Shown here in pieces: positions 3,996 to 24,773 of a stretch of 32,367 nt of DNA (position 1 is its first letter; every line of letters starts with the position of its first letter). The DNA is from a virus: positions 1 through 32,367 of IMG/VR virus record IMGVR_UViG_3300032294_001559. The stretch is one strand, 5' to 3'. The notes beneath the pieces were generated by a model. It saw nothing but the letters and a program-made list of their open reading frames with translations. It did no database searches and was not told the origin of the DNA. Both the position numbers and the translations under genes were made by a program.

Positions 3996-5213
3996 ATGAA
4001 AAATTTTTTCCAGTTTTTAACCGAAACAACTGCTACCCAACAAGCAGCAAGACTTGGGTTGCAGGGAGATGGTCACGGCGGTTGGTATAAGGATGGAGAG
4101 TTTGTTGCAAAGACTGAAAAAGGTAGATTAAAATTTTACAATAAGCGTCAAGGAGTTGGTAAAGATCCTGCTCAGACAGAGACAGAAAAAAATATCTCAG
4201 ATCCAAATTTTGTAGATCCTGCATTACAGCAGCAGGCACCTGCACCTCAACCAGTTGCTCAGGAAGCACCACCTGTTAATTTCCTTCCTGTTGAAAAAAC
4301 AAAGGGAACTCTAACAGTTGCATTTGGTAGATTTAATCCTCCTCATTTGGGGCATCTTCAATTGATGGATACTGCTGCCGCATCAGCAGAACAAGAAGGT
4401 AGTGATTATATGATTGTTCCTTCTCGTAGACAGGATAAGAAAAAGAACCCACTTGATCCTGATACAAAAGTGTCACTTATGAGATCTATGTTTCCTCAAC
4501 ATAGTGAGAGGATTATGAATGATGCAAGCACTATAACTATTTTTGATGTTCTGAAAAAAGCACACAATGATGGATATACTAATGTGAGAATCGTTGGTGG
4601 TGCTGATACGGTAAATGAGTTTAATAAACTTGCCAACAATTATAATGGTAATCTTTATGCATTTGATAATATTGAAGTAGTTTCTGCTGGTGATCTTGAT
4701 CCAGATTCCGAAGGTGTGGAAGGTCTTTCTGCTTCAAGAATGAGACTTGCTGCTGCGGAGGGAGATTTTAAAACATTTCGTTTGGGAATGCCTCCGGAAA
4801 TGAGACCAAAAGATGCAAGAGCAGTTTTTGACATGGTTCGTGCTGCAATGGGTGTTCCTGATCAAGTTGCAGAAGTTTGGGAGATTGCTCCTAAGTTTGA
4901 TCAAAGAACTCTCCGTGAAAATTACGTTAGTGAAGCAATTTTTAAGGTTGGGCAATTGGTTGAGAATCTTAATACTGGTTTAATTGGAAGAATCATTCGC
5001 AGAGGAACAAATTATCTTATTTGTGTCACAGAAGATCATATTATGTTCAAGTCTTGGATTAAGGATGTAATGGAATCAAAACTTACAAATATAAGTGGTG
5101 TTCCTTCTGATCAAAGACTTGTTGGAACTGATGCTTATCGTGAATATGTTGAGACGATGGTTCCTGGACGTATTTGGGGAAGACAATTCATAAATAAGTA
5201 TAGAAAAAAGTAA
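3996..5213 (+). CDS. Cytidylyltransferase-like nucleotidyltransferase with capsid-targeting-like N-terminus
   Basis: The 405-residue protein has a nucleotidyltransferase core. G-R-F-N-P-P-H-L-G-H at about residues 111-120 is the nucleotide-binding HxGH motif, and G-L-S-A-S-R-M-R near 242-249 matches the S-x-S-x-x-R signature of the same fold (NMN adenylyltransferase, cytidylyltransferases). The substrate is not certain; NAD synthesis is one possibility. The first ten residues, M-K-N-F-F-Q-F-L-T-E, closely resemble the T4 internal-protein capsid-targeting peptide and end in L-x-E, the gp21 prohead-protease site. A linker rich in Gln, Ala and Pro (about 65-100) follows a Gly-His-Gly-Gly-Trp module. 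The C-terminus holds a small beta-rich domain and a basic tail. It may be packed in the head and enter the cell with the DNA. Confidence 0.85.
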   Translation: MKNFFQFLTETTATQQAARLGLQGDGHGGWYKDGEFVAKTEKGRLKFYNKRQGVGKDPAQTETEKNISDPNFVDPALQQQAPAPQPVAQEAPPVNFLPVEKTKGTLTVAFGRFNPPHLGHLQLMDTAAASAEQEGSDYMIVPSRRQDKKKNPLDPDTKVSLMRSMFPQHSERIMNDASTITIFDVLKKAHNDGYTNVRIVGGADTVNEFNKLANNYNGNLYAFDNIEVVSAGDLDPDSEGVEGLSASRMRLAAAEGDFKTFRLGMPPEMRPKDARAVFDMVRAAMGVPDQVAEVWEIAPKFDQRTLRENYVSEAIFKVGQLVENLNTGLIGRIIRRGTNYLICVTEDHIMFKSWIKDVMESKLTNISGVPSDQRLVGTDAYREYVETMVPGRIWGRQFINKYRKK

Positions 5214-5231: not shown

Positions 5232-6722
5232 ATGAGTAACAATATTTTTGAGGAACTTCCATCCAGAAAAGGTGGTAAAGCAAAACCTGGTGCTGATGCT
5301 GCTGCTGGTATTGAAAAGAAGGCAAGACAACTTGTTTATGACGCTCGTTATGAAACTAAAGAAATGCTGGTAGGTAAAGATCCAGCAACTCAGGAAAGAC
5401 TAATTCTTCAAAGAATTGCCAAATCAAATGCAATTCCTGCTGTAAAGTTAAGAGCAAGGCAAATGGTTTCTAAAAGAGCCGCTGTTGCAGAAGACTTTAT
5501 TCCTATGATGGAGGATGCTGCTGCAATTAATATTGCAAATGCAATGTTCAAAGTATTTGTTGAGGGTGTTGAGGAAGTTGTTCCTGATTACTTAGAGGAA
5601 CTCAATTCACTTGGAGATAAGAAGTATAAAATTAGAGTTACTGATACTAAAACTGGAAACTCTTATGTAAGATATGGAACTCGTGATAAGATCACTCAAC
5701 TAAGAGCAAAAGGTCTTAAAGTTGAATTGACTGAATATGGTGAACCAAGAGAAGGTGAAAGAAAGCGTGGGGAGGAAACTGCTCGTGCTACTGGTGGCGG
5801 CCGCCGTAGTGGTAAAAAACCAAAACTAGATCCAGTTGGTAAGGAAGATAGTGATCCAGATAATGATGGTAATCATAATGATCCAAATGACAAATACATT
5901 ATGAAGCGTCGTGCTGCAATTGGTAAGGCAATATCCATAAGAAACGAAGAGTTTCTTGCTGATGGAACCGAAAGTACAGAGGGGCAAGGTAAGAAACTAA
6001 ATCCAACCAAAGTTGACAATTATTCTTCTGGTGTTGTTAAAATTTCTCCAGAAGATGGGACTCAATCTGATACGAAGGGTCCAAAAGCAGTTTATGCACA
6101 TACAGAACTTGAAGGTGAATTGATTGCTGAAAAGGCGATGAGTAAATCGCAGCAGCGTTTTATGGGAATGGTTTATGCCCGTAAAAAGGGTGAGATGAAA
6201 AAAGGTGAGGCATCACCTGAGGTTGAAGCATCCGCTAAGGGTATGACTAAAAAAGAGGCAAAGAAGTTTGCTAAAACAAAGCATAAAGGTCTTCCTGAAA
6301 AAGTAAAGGAAGAAAAGGAATGTGATTATGATGAGAAGAAGGATACTCGTGGAGATTATACGAAAATTAATTTAATTAAAAATAAGTTGAGATCAATGGG
6401 TGCTAAAAATCCTATCGTAATGGTCGCTAATGAAAATGTTGAAAAGGGTCCAATTCTTCCTGGTGAAAAAGGTAAGAGAATTTATCCTAAGGGTCAAGAA
6501 CCAAAGGCAACTGGTGCAAAACTTCCCCCCCTTCAAAATGCTGGTTTTGAACCAACAGGTAATGTAATCTCTGAAAGAGAGTTTGATGAACCAGGTGAAG
6601 AGGATTGGAGACCAGATGTTCGTGCTCACAATAAAGCAGTAGGATATAACAAGTATAGAGGACCTCGTAAACCAAAACCAGAAAATCCTGGACCTGGATC
6701 ACAAGCTAAACCAGCAGATTGA
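5232..6722 (+). CDS. DUF3008-containing phage protein, possible head-associated protein
   Basis: This 496-residue, very charged, largely disordered-looking protein carries near residues 303-355 the DUF3008 signature S-K-S-Q-Q-R-F-M-G-M-V-Y-A, then K-G-M-T-K-K-E-A-K-K-F-A and T-K-H-K-G-L-P-E. DUF3008 has no established function. Residues 206-221 include D-S-D-P-D-N-D-G-N-H-N-D, which resembles a calcium-binding loop. The start M-S-N-N-I-F-E-E contains I-F-E, which fits the gp21 cleavage consensus, though it lacks the M-K-x-F pattern of the other candidates. It follows the nucleotidyltransferase by 18 bases and precedes small membrane proteins. A structural or head-internal role is inferred. 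Confidence 0.8.
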   Translation: MSNNIFEELPSRKGGKAKPGADAAAGIEKKARQLVYDARYETKEMLVGKDPATQERLILQRIAKSNAIPAVKLRARQMVSKRAAVAEDFIPMMEDAAAINIANAMFKVFVEGVEEVVPDYLEELNSLGDKKYKIRVTDTKTGNSYVRYGTRDKITQLRAKGLKVELTEYGEPREGERKRGEETARATGGGRRSGKKPKLDPVGKEDSDPDNDGNHNDPNDKYIMKRRAAIGKAISIRNEEFLADGTESTEGQGKKLNPTKVDNYSSGVVKISPEDGTQSDTKGPKAVYAHTELEGELIAEKAMSKSQQRFMGMVYARKKGEMKKGEASPEVEASAKGMTKKEAKKFAKTKHKGLPEKVKEEKECDYDEKKDTRGDYTKINLIKNKLRSMGAKNPIVMVANENVEKGPILPGEKGKRIYPKGQEPKATGAKLPPLQNAGFEPTGNVISEREFDEPGEEDWRPDVRAHNKAVGYNKYRGPRKPKPENPGPGSQAKPAD

Positions 6723-7146: not shown

Positions 7147-7707
7147 ATGTCTCTTTGGGGCAATAAAGATTTAGTTGGACAGGCTGGAACCGTTCAAATC
7201 AACCTTTCAACAGAAGTTATCACTGGTACTGGAACTACTTTTGCTACTACTGGATTTACTGTAAGTGAAGGTGATGTTATTGTAGTTGGTGCTGGCGCAA
7301 CCTATGGTCACGCAGTTATCTCATCTGTAACAAGTAACACTATTGCATCGATCGCAACAACTCAATATTTGATTCCTCACCCAACAACTGGAATCATCAC
7401 AGCAGCATCTTATTTCATTACACAAAGACCTATCTATTCAATTGAAGATTCTGTTTATAAAGCACCTGATGCAAAATCAAACAGATATTCTTCAGTCTTT
7501 GGTGTAGATACGGCTGAGGCGACAGTTGCTGGTGTAACAACTGTTAGCGGTAAAGCAGCGGCATATAAAGTTGCTCACGCTGGTTGGGTTGGAGTTACTA
7601 CATATACTGATATGCATGGTAACTTCAGAGTTAAGTCTGAAACGTTAGTTGCTGGAAGTATGATAACTGGTGACGCCGTTGATGATACCAGATTCCCAGA
7701 CGCCTGA
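7147..7707 (+). CDS. Probable virion structural protein
   Basis: The 186-residue protein is rich in Thr, Ser, Val and Gly with alternating beta-strand patterns. It starts M-S-L-W-G-N-K-D and ends with A-H-A-G-W-V, a segment resembling F-R-V-K-S-E-T-L-V-A and the tail D-D-T-R-F-P-D-A. I recall this layout from a family widespread in marine T4-like phages and usually annotated as structural or unknown. A consensus late promoter directly upstream supports expression with virion genes. No enzyme motif is present. It may decorate the head or tail; which is not decidable here. Confidence 0.75.
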   Translation: MSLWGNKDLVGQAGTVQINLSTEVITGTGTTFATTGFTVSEGDVIVVGAGATYGHAVISSVTSNTIASIATTQYLIPHPTTGIITAASYFITQRPIYSIEDSVYKAPDAKSNRYSSVFGVDTAEATVAGVTTVSGKAAAYKVAHAGWVGVTTYTDMHGNFRVKSETLVAGSMITGDAVDDTRFPDA

Positions 7708-9633: not shown

Positions 9634-11927
9634 GTAACGGAACTAAGGTTATCAAGAGAGATGGTAAAACAGAACTTCTTGATTTGAATAAACTCCACAT
9701 CATGGTGGAAGAGGCATGTAAGGATCTTGCTGGGGTTTCTACATCTCAAGTTGAAATGCAATCAGGCATTCAATTTTACGATGGCATCACAACAGCAGAG
9801 ATTCAGGAGATTCTGATTCGTTCTGCTTCTGATCTGATTGATTTGGACCATCCTAACTATCAATTCGTTGCTGCCCGTCTACTGCTGTTTGCTCTTCGTA
9901 AACAATTGTATGGGCGTATGCATGAATGCCCAACAGTGAAGCAGCACGTGCTTCGTGCAGTTGATAGGGGTGTGTATGATGCTGAAATTCTTGATCTTTA
10001 TACTGATGAAGAGTTTGATAAACTTGAATCGTTTATTGATCATAGTCGTGACTATTTGTTCACGTATGCTGGACTTAGGCAAGTAGTGGACAAGTATCTT
10101 GTACAAGACAGAAGTACTGGAGAACTTTATGAAACTCCACAGTTCATGTATCTCTTGATTGCTGCTACTATTTTTTCTAAGTATCCAAAAGAAACACGTT
10201 TAGATTACGTCAGGAAATACTACGATGCAATCTCAAAGCACAAAATCAATATCCCAACACCAATCATGGCGGGAGTGCGAACTCCACTTAGACAATATGC
10301 TAGCTGTGTCCTTGTTGATGTTGATGACACCCTCGATAGTATCTTTACTAGTGATATGGCTATTGGCAGATACGTTGCACAGAGGGCGGGGATCGGCATC
10401 AACGCTGGTCGCATCCGTGGCATCAACAGTAAAATCAGAGGGGGAGAAGTTCAACACACGGGTGTTGTACCATTTCTCAAGAAGTTTGAAGCAACTGTCA
10501 GATGTTGCACGCAAAATGGCATACGAGGTGGATCCGCGACAGTACACTTCCCAATCTGGCACCAAGAAATAGAAGATATTCTAGTATTGAAAAATAATAA
10601 AGGAACTGAGGATAATCGTGTTCGTAAGTTAGATTACTCTATTCAAATCTCTAAACTGTTCTATGAACGATTCATCCGCAACGAAGAGATTTCCCTCTTC
10701 TCGCCCCACTCAGTTCCTGGTCTGTATGATGCTTTTGGAACTGATTCTTTTGACGACTTATATGTACGTTACGAACGAGATCAGTCTATTCCAAGAAAGA
10801 CTATCGGAGCTCAAGAACTATTTCTAGATCTACTCAAAGAACGTGCAGAAACTGGTCGTATTTACATTATGAATATTGATCACTGTAACTCTCACTCATC
10901 TTTTATTGATAAAGTTGAGATGAGTAATCTGTGCCAAGAAATTACTCTTCCAACTAAACCACTTCAACACATTGATGATATTGATGGTGAAATTGCTCTT
11001 TGCATTCTTAGTGCTATCAATGTTGGCAAAATCAAGAGTAATGAAGATCTTGAAGTTCTTTGTGATCTTGCCGTTCGCTCTCTTGATGAACTCATTGATT
11101 TTCAAGGATACCCAGTTAAAGCAGCAGAAATCGCCACCAGAGCACGTCGTTCACTTGGGGTAGGTTTTATTGGTTTAGCACACTATCTTGCCAAGCACGG
11201 CGAGCACTATAATGATCCTGGTGCCTGGAAACTGGTACACGATCTCACTGAGGCGTTCCAGTATTATCTGATTCAAGCAACAGTAAACCTTGCAAAAGAA
11301 AAGGGTGCTTGTGAGTATAGTCACAGAACCAAGTATGGGCAGGGAATTCTCCCAATTGATACATACAAGAAGGACGTTGACGAAATCGTCCCCAACGAGT
11401 TAAAATATGATTGGGAAGGTCTTAGAGCACAGGTTAAACAATATGGAGTCAGGAACAGCACTCTGTCCGCACAGATGCCATCGGAGAGCAGTTCCGTTGT
11501 GTCAAATGCCACCAATGGCATCGAACCTCCTAGGGGATACTTGTCCGTTAAGAAATCGAAGAAAGGACCACTTAAGCAAATTGTTCCACAGTATCAAACT
11601 CTTAAGAACAATTATACGCTTCTTTGGGATATGCCTAGCAATCGTGGTTACATTCATATTGTTGCTGTTATGCAAAAGTTCTTCGATCAAGCGATTTCTG
11701 GAAACTGGTCATATAATCCAGAAAATTATCCCGATAATGAAGTTCCTACTTCAGTAATGGCGCAGGACCTTCTGACTACATATAAGTACGGTTGGAAAAC
11801 CAGTTATTATCAAAATACTTATGATAATAAAACTGATGAAGTTGAAGAAACTCGTCAGTCACTTGAAAATTTAATTTCCGATATTCTAGAAACGGAGGAG
11901 GAAGATTGTGAGTCTTGTAAGATTTAA
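9630..11927 (+). CDS. nrdA: Ribonucleotide reductase class Ia, alpha subunit
   Basis: The 765-residue protein reduces ribonucleotides to deoxyribonucleotides together with NrdB. An N-terminal ATP-cone-like stretch (V-I-K-R-D-G-K) is present. The active-site parts are all visible: A-S-C-V-L-V, N-I-D-H-C-N, S-N-L-C-Q-E-I-T-L-P, A-L-C-I-L-S-A, and the radical-transfer tyrosine pair in T-S-Y-Y-Q-N-T. The C-terminal C-E-S-C-K-I is the redox-shuttle cysteine pair. It looks complete and functional. The start overlaps the primase gene, and the end overlaps nrdB by 20 bases. Confidence 0.97.
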   Translation: MSNGTKVIKRDGKTELLDLNKLHIMVEEACKDLAGVSTSQVEMQSGIQFYDGITTAEIQEILIRSASDLIDLDHPNYQFVAARLLLFALRKQLYGRMHECPTVKQHVLRAVDRGVYDAEILDLYTDEEFDKLESFIDHSRDYLFTYAGLRQVVDKYLVQDRSTGELYETPQFMYLLIAATIFSKYPKETRLDYVRKYYDAISKHKINIPTPIMAGVRTPLRQYASCVLVDVDDTLDSIFTSDMAIGRYVAQRAGIGINAGRIRGINSKIRGGEVQHTGVVPFLKKFEATVRCCTQNGIRGGSATVHFPIWHQEIEDILVLKNNKGTEDNRVRKLDYSIQISKLFYERFIRNEEISLFSPHSVPGLYDAFGTDSFDDLYVRYERDQSIPRKTIGAQELFLDLLKERAETGRIYIMNIDHCNSHSSFIDKVEMSNLCQEITLPTKPLQHIDDIDGEIALCILSAINVGKIKSNEDLEVLCDLAVRSLDELIDFQGYPVKAAEIATRARRSLGVGFIGLAHYLAKHGEHYNDPGAWKLVHDLTEAFQYYLIQATVNLAKEKGACEYSHRTKYGQGILPIDTYKKDVDEIVPNELKYDWEGLRAQVKQYGVRNSTLSAQMPSESSSVVSNATNGIEPPRGYLSVKKSKKGPLKQIVPQYQTLKNNYTLLWDMPSNRGYIHIVAVMQKFFDQAISGNWSYNPENYPDNEVPTSVMAQDLLTTYKYGWKTSYYQNTYDNKTDEVEETRQSLENLISDILETEEEDCESCKI

Positions 11928-13092
11928 AACAGGTTTGGAGGAAAAAGTAGTGGTCGAATCAATGACCGTTTTCAATCCTCAGGAAGTAGATACTAAAAAG
12001 CAACCTATGTTTTTTGGTCAACCACTAGGAATTCAAAGATATGATTCTTACAAATACCCAATCTTCGACAAACTAACAACACAACAACTGGGTTATTTTT
12101 GGAGACCTGAAGAAGTTTCTCTTCAAAAAGATAGAGGTGATTATCATATGCTTCGCTCTGAGCAGAAGCATATTTTCACCAGTAATTTGAAATATCAAGT
12201 TATGCTTGATTCTGTTCAGGGTCGTGGTCCTGGTATGGCGTTCGCGCCTTACTGTTCTCTCCCTGAACTGGAAGCGTGTATGAAAGTTTGGGAGTTTATG
12301 GAGATGATCCACTCCCGCTCATATACTTACATCATCAAGAATGTTTATTCAGATCCTTCTGAGGTTTTTGATACTATTCTTAGTGATGATCGTATCGTAG
12401 AACGTGCTGTTAGTGTTACTGAGGCATATAACGATTTCATCAATAGTGCTCAGCATTATGGTTCAACTAATGAATGGATTCATGCATTAGAACAAGTACC
12501 ATACGCACAAGAGGCAAGGTATGAACTTAAAAGAAAACTATTCAGAGCAGTTGCAAACGTTAATATTCTTGAAGGTATTCGCTTTTACGTCAGTTTCGCT
12601 TGCAGTTTTGCGTTTGGCGAACTCAAGCTTATGGAAGGAAGTGCAAAGATCATCTCACTAATTGCTAGGGATGAAAATCAACATTTAGTTATCACTCAGA
12701 ATATTCTAAACAAATGGAAAGAGGGTGATGATCCTGAGATGGCACGTATTTCCAAAGAAGAAGAGCAGTGGGTCTACAAGACCTTTGAGAATGCAGTAAA
12801 TCAAGAAAAACTTTGGGCAGAGTATCTGTTCAAGGATGGATCGATGATTGGTCTCAATGACAAACTGTTACAGCAGTATGTTGAATGGATTGCAAACCGT
12901 AGAATGAAGGCAATTGGACTTAAACCACTTTATGATATTTCTGCAAAAAATAATCCACTTCCTTGGACTGAGCATTGGATTAGTTCTAAGGGTCTTCAAG
13001 TTGCACCACAAGAAACAGAAGTCGAATCTTATATTGTCGGGGGAATCAAGCAAGATGTTACCAAAGATACTTTCTCAGGATTCCAATTATGA
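11908..13092 (+). CDS. nrdB: Ribonucleotide reductase class Ia, beta subunit
   Basis: The 394-residue radical-generating subunit has its iron ligands in E-M-I-H-S-R-S-Y (with the radical tyrosine), N-I-L-E-G-I-R-F-Y and A-R-D-E-N-Q-H-L. I give the GTG at 11908 because a very strong ribosome site (GGAGGAGG) lies six bases upstream. An ATG at 11962 (protein starting M-T-V-F-N-P-Q-E-V-D) is the alternative; it would match how related NrdB proteins begin but has poor ribosome-site spacing. The gene sits in an operon with nrdA and overlaps the following small gene by 38 bases. Confidence 0.95.
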   Translation: MSLVRFKTGLEEKVVVESMTVFNPQEVDTKKQPMFFGQPLGIQRYDSYKYPIFDKLTTQQLGYFWRPEEVSLQKDRGDYHMLRSEQKHIFTSNLKYQVMLDSVQGRGPGMAFAPYCSLPELEACMKVWEFMEMIHSRSYTYIIKNVYSDPSEVFDTILSDDRIVERAVSVTEAYNDFINSAQHYGSTNEWIHALEQVPYAQEARYELKRKLFRAVANVNILEGIRFYVSFACSFAFGELKLMEGSAKIISLIARDENQHLVITQNILNKWKEGDDPEMARISKEEEQWVYKTFENAVNQEKLWAEYLFKDGSMIGLNDKLLQQYVEWIANRRMKAIGLKPLYDISAKNNPLPWTEHWISSKGLQVAPQETEVESYIVGGIKQDVTKDTFSGFQL

Positions 13093-13281: not shown

Positions 13282-14961
13282 ATGAAGTCGTTTCAGAATT
13301 TTGCATATAATATTGTAGAGGAACCTCGCAAAGCATATGGTAAACCGAGTCATTTTGATGCACAAGGTGAACCAATGTATACAAAAAGACCTGGACCAAA
13401 TGAACCAGGTCGTAGAGCACAGGTTCAAAAATCACCTAAAACAGTTACACAAGTAAAGGGTGAAATTGCAGCAGCAAAAAGATTTGCTGGTGCAAGATCT
13501 GGTGGATTGGATACTAGAAATGTACCATCTTTTGTAACTCAAAGAAGACAAGAAAGAGCAAGTAAATTACTTGGACCAAATCCTTGGGATATGCCAGGTG
13601 GTGCTGGTGCTGGTCAAAAAACTTTTGATCGTGGAATGAGAAAACTTGTTCCATCACCTAGTCCTTCAAGAGGTCATAGAGAAAGAGCACTTAGAGATTT
13701 CATTAATCAGTCATCAAAAGAACTCGGAACTTCTACTGATGATATTATTGCAGATGTGATACGTGGAAAATCTGCATCACCAGATCCTTGGAAATCATCC
13801 GAAACTGCAACAACACCCCCAAAACCAAAACCAGTAAGTCAGGCTGAAGTTTCTAAGAAGCAGGCATCATATAGAGCTTCTCAGAAACCTCCATCACCAC
13901 CTAAGACTGAACTTGGTGGAACTAAAAAAGCAGTTTCTTTTTCTACTCCAACTAGATCAAAATCACCTAGTTCTTCGAGAACTTCTGTTTTAGATGTTAA
14001 GGCAACAGAAGTAAAGGGAACTAAGGTTGTAGAACCAAAAGCAAAAACATTACCAGGTTTAAAACTAGGTACAGAACCTGCTGGTCCATTAGTATCTAAT
14101 CGTCCAGGCGAGTCTAAAACAATTAGACCACAAAAAGGACCTGGAAGAACTGGTATTCTTGGAAAACCAAAAGCTGGACAAATGGTTGGTGCAAAGATTG
14201 AACCAGTAAAAGTTGCTGACGTTACTCCTAAGACTCCGAAGATTACTGGTCAAGGCGTTGTAAAAACAAAACCTCTTTCTATACCAGCACCACCTAAACC
14301 TGTTGTGCAGGCAAAGACTAATTTAAAACCAGCACCAGTAAAAGTACAGAAACCAACAGCATTAAAAATTCCAAGTCCTGCTGCACCAAAAATTAAACCA
14401 CTTTCTGCCACAAGAACTACACAGTCGCAAAGACTTGCTGATACCGTAATTAAAGCATCTAAACAAATTAGATCTGATATCGCAGCAGAAAGAGCATCAG
14501 AAAGAGCAAAGATGATGAAGGGTCTTGGCACTGCTGGAAAAGTTCTTGGTGCTGTTCAAACTGGAATTGAAGCGAAGAAAGGTTATGATATTGCTAAGGC
14601 AATGGGTAGTAGTGAAAGAAGATCAATAGGTGCTGGTGCCGCAAGAGCTACTGGAAGCGTTCTTGGTGGTGTAGTTGGGGGAACACTTGGATCTGTTGCT
14701 GGACCAATTGGATCTGCTGTTGGTGCAACTGCTGGAATAACCATAGGATCGCAACTTGGATCAAGAGCATATGATGTAATTACTGGTGATCCTAAGAAAA
14801 AGGTAACGACTCAGGGTGTTCTCACTAATATTAGAAAGGCAGTTCCACAAGAAATCAGAGCACAAGTACCTCAAAATGTAAGAAAAGGATTTACTGATTT
14901 TGTAAAGTCTGCTGGAAGAACTTATGGTGATTGGCAGAGATCACAACAACCCAATAAGTGA
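13282..14961 (+). CDS. Putative head-internal (ejected) protein, basic, with glycine-zipper segment
   Basis: I do not recognise an enzyme in this 559-residue protein. It starts M-K-S-F-Q-N-F-A-Y-N-I-V-E-E; I-V-E is a gp21-type cleavage site, and the M-K-x-F start resembles T4 capsid-targeting peptides. Residues 40-400 are low-complexity, rich in Lys, Pro, Ser and Thr and strongly basic, which suits packing among DNA. Residues about 445-493 are Gly/Ala-rich with repeated G-x-x-x-G spacing (G-S-V-L-G-G-V-V-G-G-T-L-G), a glycine-zipper pattern found in membrane-inserting proteins. A consensus late promoter stands directly upstream. The internal-protein role is inferred. Confidence 0.75.
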   Translation: MKSFQNFAYNIVEEPRKAYGKPSHFDAQGEPMYTKRPGPNEPGRRAQVQKSPKTVTQVKGEIAAAKRFAGARSGGLDTRNVPSFVTQRRQERASKLLGPNPWDMPGGAGAGQKTFDRGMRKLVPSPSPSRGHRERALRDFINQSSKELGTSTDDIIADVIRGKSASPDPWKSSETATTPPKPKPVSQAEVSKKQASYRASQKPPSPPKTELGGTKKAVSFSTPTRSKSPSSSRTSVLDVKATEVKGTKVVEPKAKTLPGLKLGTEPAGPLVSNRPGESKTIRPQKGPGRTGILGKPKAGQMVGAKIEPVKVADVTPKTPKITGQGVVKTKPLSIPAPPKPVVQAKTNLKPAPVKVQKPTALKIPSPAAPKIKPLSATRTTQSQRLADTVIKASKQIRSDIAAERASERAKMMKGLGTAGKVLGAVQTGIEAKKGYDIAKAMGSSERRSIGAGAARATGSVLGGVVGGTLGSVAGPIGSAVGATAGITIGSQLGSRAYDVITGDPKKKVTTQGVLTNIRKAVPQEIRAQVPQNVRKGFTDFVKSAGRTYGDWQRSQQPNK

Positions 14962-24227: not shown

Positions 24228-24773
24228 ATGAAAACTTTTAAACAGTTTTTGGAAGAATCTTATTTTTCAGTTAGTGAGGGGTGGGTTTCGCCAAATTTAT
24301 CTAGGATTGTTTCTAGAATGGGGAGTTTAGAAAAAGCAATTACTGGTCGCAGAGATTCGCCAGAATATGCTAGATATAGAAGAGTTGCTGATGTAGCATC
24401 ACAAACTAGAAATAATCCCAATACTCCATTTAAGAGACCAGATGGAGATAATTATTTAAATTCTGTTTGGAATAAATTTTCAAGTAAAATAAAACCACAA
24501 TCGTCAAATAATTCAGTAAAACCATCTTCACAAACTACAAAAACTTTATCATCAAATAACAATAGATTTGGGGGTAGTACAGGTGGAGCACTTTTTAGAG
24601 ATAGAATGGGCGATTATTCAAATGCTTTAAAATCTAGAGGTGCAGCATCTGGTGGTTTGATTGATATTCGTCCTGTTGATAGTCAATCTGATCCTATGCC
24701 TGACATTCAAAATATTGCTAGACGCCGTGCTGAAAGACAGTTTACTTCTAGAGGTGGAGTTGGGGGAGTTTAA
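24228..24773 (+). CDS. Putative head-internal protein with capsid-targeting-like N-terminus
   Basis: In this 181-residue protein the first ten residues, M-K-T-F-K-Q-F-L-E-E, are the closest match in the window to the T4 internal-protein targeting peptide and end in L-x-E, the gp21 site. The mature part would be basic and rich in Ser, Arg and Asn, with no recognised domain; P-E-Y-A-R-Y-R-R-V-A-D-V-A and R-R-R-A-E-R-Q-F are examples. Size, charge and the N-terminus together resemble T4 IPI to IPIII, which enter the host with DNA and can block host defences. That role is inferred. Confidence 0.75.
   Translation: MKTFKQFLEESYFSVSEGWVSPNLSRIVSRMGSLEKAITGRRDSPEYARYRRVADVASQTRNNPNTPFKRPDGDNYLNSVWNKFSSKIKPQSSNNSVKPSSQTTKTLSSNNNRFGGSTGGALFRDRMGDYSNALKSRGAASGGLIDIRPVDSQSDPMPDIQNIARRRAERQFTSRGGVGGV

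Follow-up and report, generated by a model that had tools for sequence, protein, structure and literature searches.

Does the phage of IMG/VR record IMGVR_UViG_3300032294_001559 carry into its host an enzyme that has been packaged in the head? The question is raised by a gene near one end of the window (the whole 32,367-nucleotide stretch of DNA analyzed here), in which a leader resembling a capsid-targeting sequence was originally predicted to be joined to a complete HxGH/S-x-S-x-x-R nucleotidyltransferase core. An enzyme that entered in this way would be active ahead of phage transcription, at the time when host defences meet the incoming DNA.

Gene layout and family

Leader and core were both found in one complete open reading frame, with MKNFFQFLTET as residues 1-11 of a 405-residue protein and the motifs H117-L-G-H120 and S245-A-S247-R-M-R250 further downstream. 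The division into leader and enzyme describes the protein only in part, as a 40-residue module (13-52) and an SH3-like C-terminal domain are also present. The features are as follows (a slash marks the candidate cleavage point):

3996..5213, + strand: complete open reading frame with ATG start, T4-GC190-type 'cytidyltransferase' (nucleotidyltransferase), 405 aa
3996..4028, + strand: capsid-targeting-like leader MKNFFQFLTE/T, residues 1-11, candidate T4-type prohead protease site after E10
4032..4151, + strand: 40-aa 'DGHGxW' module, residues 13-52, also on S-CREM2 gp12 and gp14
residues 53-102: linker
4302..4862, + strand: nucleotidyltransferase domain of the HIGH superfamily, residues about 103-289
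4344..4355, + strand: [T/H]xGH motif, H117-L-G-H120
4728..4745, + strand: SxSxxR motif, S245-A-S247-R-M-R250
4902..5210, + strand: C-terminal domain, residues about 303-405, SH3-like barrel at about 319-360 (AlphaFold2 model)
5232..6722, + strand: next gene, 496 aa, parts matching S-SCSM1 gp280 (47% over 68 aa) and gp279 (66% over 58 aa)
7147..7707, + strand: 186-aa gene, 40% over 179 aa to S-SCSM1 gp277

The protein matched phrog_395 ('cytidyltransferase') with an E-value of 3.5e-101, and relatives were detected by tblastn in 529 of 50,697 phage records, mostly from Synechococcus and Prochlorococcus phages; the open reading frame is therefore not a chance pattern. Genes in the window follow the order DnaB/gp41-like helicase, MazG, nucleotidyltransferase, virion-like block, primase, nrdA and nrdB, and the syntenic orthologues in S-SM2 and S-SM1 are labelled T4-LIKE GC: 190. 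Orthology, and synteny between gp41-mazG and gp61, identify the gene as T4-GC190, the nucleotidyltransferase gene known from T4-like phages of the sea. In the corresponding block of S-SCSM1, the label virion protein is given to each of gp089, gp282, the NMNAT, gp280, gp279 and gp277. The window gene at 2517 had no match among the 21 proteins compared.

Matches to the C-terminal domain in the phage collection came from cyanophages, marine virus records, and Methylophilales and Pelagibacter phages. In phages such as S-PM2, S-RSM4 and S-CAM4, the annotation given to the same SH3-like domain is ribonucleotide reductase (NrdB or alpha subunit), which is probably wrong.

Catalytic core and predicted fold

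PF01467 (CTP_transf_like) was matched by residues 109-210 (E 6.1e-10, 39.9 bits against a cutoff of 21) and, at E<=0.1, by 61/61 members of an alignment comprising the group of the window protein (w), the S-SM1 group (s) and the Melnitz group (m). All 61 members share G111-R-F-N-P-P116, G119, H120, K150, P152, G202, S245, S247 and R250, and D204 is kept in 60 of them. This invariance suggests that the protein is a working enzyme. Residue 117 is T in 35 members and H in 26, and the family signature is therefore [T/H]xGH; the strict HxGH of the original prediction applies to the window protein but not to the family. With the Pfam cutoff passed and both [T/H]xGH and SxSxxR in place, the protein is, as judged from its sequence, a nucleotidyltransferase of the HIGH superfamily. 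The HxGH and SxSxxR pair of catalytic motifs is known from NadD, NadM, NadR and CoaD.

The AlphaFold2 model of the protein had a mean pLDDT of 74.7 and a pTM of 0.48, with pLDDT values of about 80-92 across most of residues 103-284. Its best Foldseek matches were NadD (8aih, E 8.8e-6) and PPAT (1o6b, E 1.6e-5), and structure comparison aligned it with PPAT 3k9w (Z 13.8, rmsd 3.1, 156 residues aligned), NadD 4s1o_B (Z 13.0, rmsd 3.1, 157 aligned) and NadM 2r5w_B (Z 12.6, rmsd 3.1, 159 aligned). The structure prediction that had been proposed as a check thus gave a well-modelled domain with adenylyltransferase matches and, at this level, no sign of the lost active-site geometry that was to refute the prediction. 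These whole-model searches were little informative for the 40-residue module and the C-terminal domain. Sequence searches of the PDB returned weak matches, namely 2qjo with the single sequence (E 0.15) and 3gmi (0.21), 6gye (0.52) and 9rpk (0.98) with a profile.

At E<=0.01, the NCBIfam profiles nadR_NMN_Atrans, TIGR00482 and CoaD matched 42/61, 35/61 and 30/61 members, respectively. The window protein stayed below the equivalog cutoffs for NMN/NaMN adenylyltransferases (TIGR00482, 22.3 bits against 112.45; TIGR01526, 18.2 against 341.15) and for phosphopantetheine adenylyltransferase (TIGR01510, 19.7 against 103.3). In Pfam and NCBIfam, its catalytic region matched nucleotidyltransferase-type families alone and no ADP-ribosyltransferase domain. 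On the model and the profile scores, NaMN/NMN and phosphopantetheine adenylyltransferases are tied and neither equivalog level is reached; the predicted class, a nucleotidyltransferase/adenylyltransferase fold, is therefore firm and the substrate is not. A best guess, slightly backed by the profile counts, is that the acceptor may be NMN or NaMN, which would yield NAD.

A T4-type leader at the N-terminus

The T4 internal proteins IPII and IPIII both begin with MKTYQEFIAEA, and published work on T4 describes a capsid targeting sequence, roughly 10 residues long, that sends such proteins into the core (PMC9958956, PMC5694885). The N-terminus of the window protein, taken as sequence, fits a T4-type leader of this length. 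It includes a prohead protease-type site (hydrophobic-x-Glu) at L8-T9-E10, after which the leader is probably trimmed. A second site near residue 313 (VSE/A) was dropped, the E being present in just 18/61 members.

M1 and F4 are found in 61/61 members and K2 in 60/61. All 81 unique homologue N-termini (44 w, 21 s and 16 m; 3/80 m loci that were cut at the start were skipped) carry MKxFxx[FIL], with K replaced by R or I at least once. In the m group the leader precedes the enzyme domain directly (MKKFSEIIEA-RGD) with nothing else before the enzyme. The leader is kept in three clades despite differing downstream sequence. When IMG/VR DNA was scanned for the leader alone, with Ala after Glu, at least 120 stretches were obtained, with 80 loci among the matches listed; a GRFNPPxxGH-type motif was present in 49/80 ORFs among these listed matches, and about 8 more of the 80, which are truncated or diverged, look on inspection like nucleotidyltransferases of the same family.

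A narrow leader pattern, MK.[FYL]..F[LIVMF].E, was tried at each Met with at least 60 residues to the next stop. Over 20 kb of T4 it matched 2/134 Met positions, those of IPII and IPIII and no others; the counts were 3/1064 in S-CREM2, 2/1358 in S-SCSM1 and 2/196 in the window (the gene at 3996 and one at 24228). With GTG starts included, four S-CREM2 proteins carry the narrow leader (gp6, a SAM lyase; gp13; gp14, an APH-like kinase; gp154, the nucleotidyltransferase), and all four are among the 52 virion-detected proteins of 219 ORFs (Fisher p=0.0029, for a pattern that was set after the S-CREM2 matches were known). A broader pattern chosen beforehand gave virion detection for 4/5 proteins in S-CREM2 (p=0.012) and 5/9 when both phages were pooled (p=0.018); S-SCSM1 alone demonstrated no enrichment with this pattern (1/4, p=0.52). 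The S-SCSM1 tally used 47 of 282 CDS labelled virion protein, the published figure being 45, and gp030 of this phage has the leader yet lacks the label.

The articles on S-CREM2 and S-SCSM1 nowhere use the words leader, targeting, N-terminal, signal peptide or cleavage in their main text. In the openly readable literature searched, capsid targeting in connection with cyanophage led to one T4 review. Within this literature, we consider the match of the leader to IPII/IPIII, and its tie to virion detection in S-CREM2, to be new here. The leader also offers a means of predicting what other proteins the heads of abundant marine phages may carry.

A clear T4-type leader, MKTFKQFLEES, also opens the 181-aa protein encoded at 24228-24773 of the window, which belongs to no known family and is by its sequence a second candidate for head cargo. 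A looser leader-like start, MKSFQNFAYNIVEE, is found on the 559-aa protein at 13282-14961, which has a weak match to a tail-associated lysin family. Leader-like sequences (TLKEFLENI/TFKEFLEYIE) were also observed at the C-terminal ends of small proteins, namely S-SM2 SSM2_163 (NC_015279) and S-SCSM1 gp279 (L082:6644-7117, L093:8808-9017), the latter bearing the virion protein label.

A 40-residue module shared with other virion proteins

A profile of residues 13-52 was run against 4,683 ORFs, which came from the window, from S-SCSM1 and S-CREM2 and from parts of further phages. It recovered the nucleotidyltransferases of the window (3.6e-23), S-SCSM1 (1.6e-20) and Syn9 (2.8e-16), and in S-CREM2 two copies on gp14 (4.7e-6, 1.7e-5) and one on gp12 (1.9e-10), the next match having an E-value of 3.3. 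Both S-CREM2 proteins are reported among the virion proteins in the article on this phage (PMC10665884). A search of 24 records placed the module in 15, with one copy per positive record except for three in S-CREM2, whose scores there are circular as its copies were included in the model; in the same search the module was not found in T4, Melnitz-2, P-HM2 or GAP32. Residues 29-47 are predicted by AlphaFold2 to form a three-stranded beta meander.

In the S-CREM2 record (OR473000), the two module-bearing genes (L088:7704-10313 and 10579-12846) are annotated as Cas9 (gp12) and an APH-like kinase (gp14). The name 'Cas9' was set aside, as gp12 matched no Pfam family at E<=0.01. The occurrence of one module on the window protein and on two unrelated virion proteins of S-CREM2 is new here. 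In S-CREM2 the nucleotidyltransferase carries the leader but no module and was nonetheless found in virions; the common denominator is therefore the leader rather than the module.

Detection of orthologues in virions

Published mass spectrometry of virions has detected the orthologue in three phages. A 'putative citidylyltransferase (T4-GC190)' is named among the proteins of purified S-SM1 virions by Sullivan et al. (2010), who also place the gene within a cyanophage core set of 25 genes and give the protein as not detected in S-PM2 (PMC3037559). The NMNAT of S-SCSM1 (ORF91), which is 49% identical to the window protein over 414 columns, was reported in the virion proteome of that phage in 2022, where S-CBWM1 and another phage are also cited (PMC9602691). 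S-CREM2 ORF154 followed in 2023, identified by 3 unique peptides that cover 11.2% of the sequence (PMC10665884). For S-CREM1, the article text refers to 14 detected proteins without naming the NMNAT among them, the latter being named only in a figure legend (PMC9964418). The spelling 'cytitidyltransferase' in combination with 'phage' gave no literature match.

The S-SCSM1 authors suggest an effect on NAD if the NMNAT enters the cell (PMC9602691), and the S-CREM2 authors propose that the enzyme, carried by the virion, acts when infection begins (PMC10665884). The idea of a head-packaged, early-acting nucleotidyltransferase is therefore not new but already published in substance. The packaging suggested by the original prediction is well supported for the orthologues of S-SM1, S-SCSM1 and S-CREM2, and for the window phage itself we infer it from these and from the IPII/IPIII-like leader. 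Overall, the finding is sound, although largely known already; what is added is the link through the leader, the module found on other virion proteins and a predicted ligase-like neighbour.

Proposed role

We favor, with somewhat more confidence than doubt, an enzyme that is made late, targeted by its leader, carried in the head and brought into the host with the DNA, where it would perform adenylyl transfer. In this scheme the nucleotidyltransferase would be synthesized late in infection and drawn into the prohead core by its T4 internal-protein-type leader, which the prohead protease would probably trim after E10. The enzyme would then be carried within the head and, most likely, be ejected with the DNA into the next host, where AMP (CMP being less likely) from a nucleoside triphosphate would be joined to a phosphorylated acceptor, presumably to the benefit of the phage. 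Several results speak against this scheme: the scores below every equivalog cutoff, PPAT scoring as high as NadD by fold, the lack of leader enrichment in S-SCSM1 alone, the results for S-PM2 and S-CREM1, the possibility of co-purification raised by the proteome authors, and the leaderless bare-domain relatives in jumbo phages such as GAP32. The word CTAAATA, which we take to be late-promoter-like, likewise showed no enrichment: the window has 9 matches where 6.5 are expected, and 22/100 shuffles reached as many.

An unlikely alternative, which nevertheless deserves some weight, is that the protein is a component of the prohead core: the leader would place it in the scaffold, the fold would serve for binding only or for late action, and nothing useful would be injected. 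Leader and virion data speak for presence in the particle and no more, the gene lies within a block of virion proteins, and membership in the core set reported for cyanophages is what would be expected of a structural part. However, catalytic residues that are invariant in 61/61 members from three clades suggest a working enzyme, and relatives in jumbo phages such as GAP32, which consist of the bare domain without a leader, argue against a structural role.

A predicted ligase-like gene upstream in two other clades

The motif K[WYF]DG[AST]P was found upstream of the nucleotidyltransferase gene in 67/67 s-group and 59/60 m-group loci (those with at least 1,400 nt upstream), but in just 5/76 w-group loci. 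The gene that carries it is DUF6267 by Pfam. An alignment of 22 members has K58-x-D60-G61, E368-G369-x-V371 and K383-x-V385-D386-R387 invariant, which we take to be ligase motifs I, IV and V. The model of the protein (pLDDT 84.6, pTM 0.81) aligned with a Naegleria RNA ligase (Z 9.3, rmsd 3.4, 184 aligned), and its best 35 structure matches are all RNA, tRNA or DNA ligases; Foldseek gave no match at E<=0.001, with a DNA ligase on top at 0.062. DUF6267 is accordingly predicted, from motifs and model, to be RNA-ligase-like. Some copies open with a T4-type leader, MKSFQTFLNEA, or with the similar MIDFSNFLAED. The literature searched does not name DUF6267, and the position of the nucleotidyltransferase gene directly downstream of it in two other clades is new here. 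DUF6267 loci include L279:6418-7623 (- strand) and the upstream genes of s and m loci, e.g. L099:540-1511. A fusion of the two proteins (phrog_455, metaG-MbCM1) was considered as a functional link; at the MbCM1 junction, two genes that usually lie side by side seem to have been joined into one frame, and the fusion was therefore not used.

This neighbour would suit an early function linked to RNA, in which the targets of the nucleotidyltransferase and DUF6267 would be tRNA or the ends of RNA, for repair or end modification, rather than NAD. The near-constant pairing in the s and m groups, the predicted ligase motifs and matches, and the leader on some DUF6267 proteins are in its favor, but the w clade mostly lacks the upstream motif, phrog_455 was matched among the window proteins scanned by the nucleotidyltransferase alone, through its enzyme half, and the lack of a DUF6267 match in Foldseek at E<=0.001 also counts against it; we regard this function as improbable. 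Little credence is likewise given to a general cargo system, in which a T4-type leader, sometimes with the module, would load unrelated enzymes (nucleotidyltransferase, SAM lyase, kinase, a large nuclease-annotated protein and the predicted RNA ligase), with the nucleotidyltransferase and the DUF6267 ligase co-injected and acting on host or phage RNA before phage expression.

Cargo or contaminant, and comparison with known systems

The cyanophage proteome papers left the choice between cargo and contaminant open, and the shared T4-type leader offers an answer based on sequence. That an abundant soluble enzyme, acting late (e.g. in NAD supply for replication), merely co-purifies with virions is allowed for in the discussions of both the S-SCSM1 (PMC9602691) and the S-CREM2 authors (PMC10665884) and would suit the few S-CREM2 peptides, but it is very improbable given separate detections in S-SM1, S-SCSM1 and S-CREM2 and a leader common to T4 internal proteins and three other detected S-CREM2 proteins, which is unexpected for abundant soluble proteins.

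The head-carried nucleotidyltransferase that we favor is closest to the T4-GC190 proteins of S-SM1, S-SM2 and S-SCSM1, with which it shares similarity along its length, the leader, the catalytic motifs and the position between gp41-mazG and gp61, and from which it is not known to differ in function. In the S-CREM2 nucleotidyltransferase, by contrast, the leader is kept, whereas the 40-residue module and part of the C-terminus are missing and the gene is located elsewhere. NadD, NadM, NadR and CoaD have a fold in common with it across residues about 103-288 (Z 12-14), although identity in the structural alignments is only 10-20%. Its leader agrees with that of T4 IPII and IPIII (MKTYQEFIAE/A) in position, length and pattern, but what it would carry here is an enzyme domain with no relation to those two proteins, and the cleavage site is only a candidate. 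The resemblance to T4 Alt that was originally drawn holds for the proposed head-borne entry with the DNA and for the timing, and does not extend to fold or chemistry: T4 Alt is an ADP-ribosyltransferase, whereas the window protein is a nucleotidyltransferase of the HIGH superfamily.
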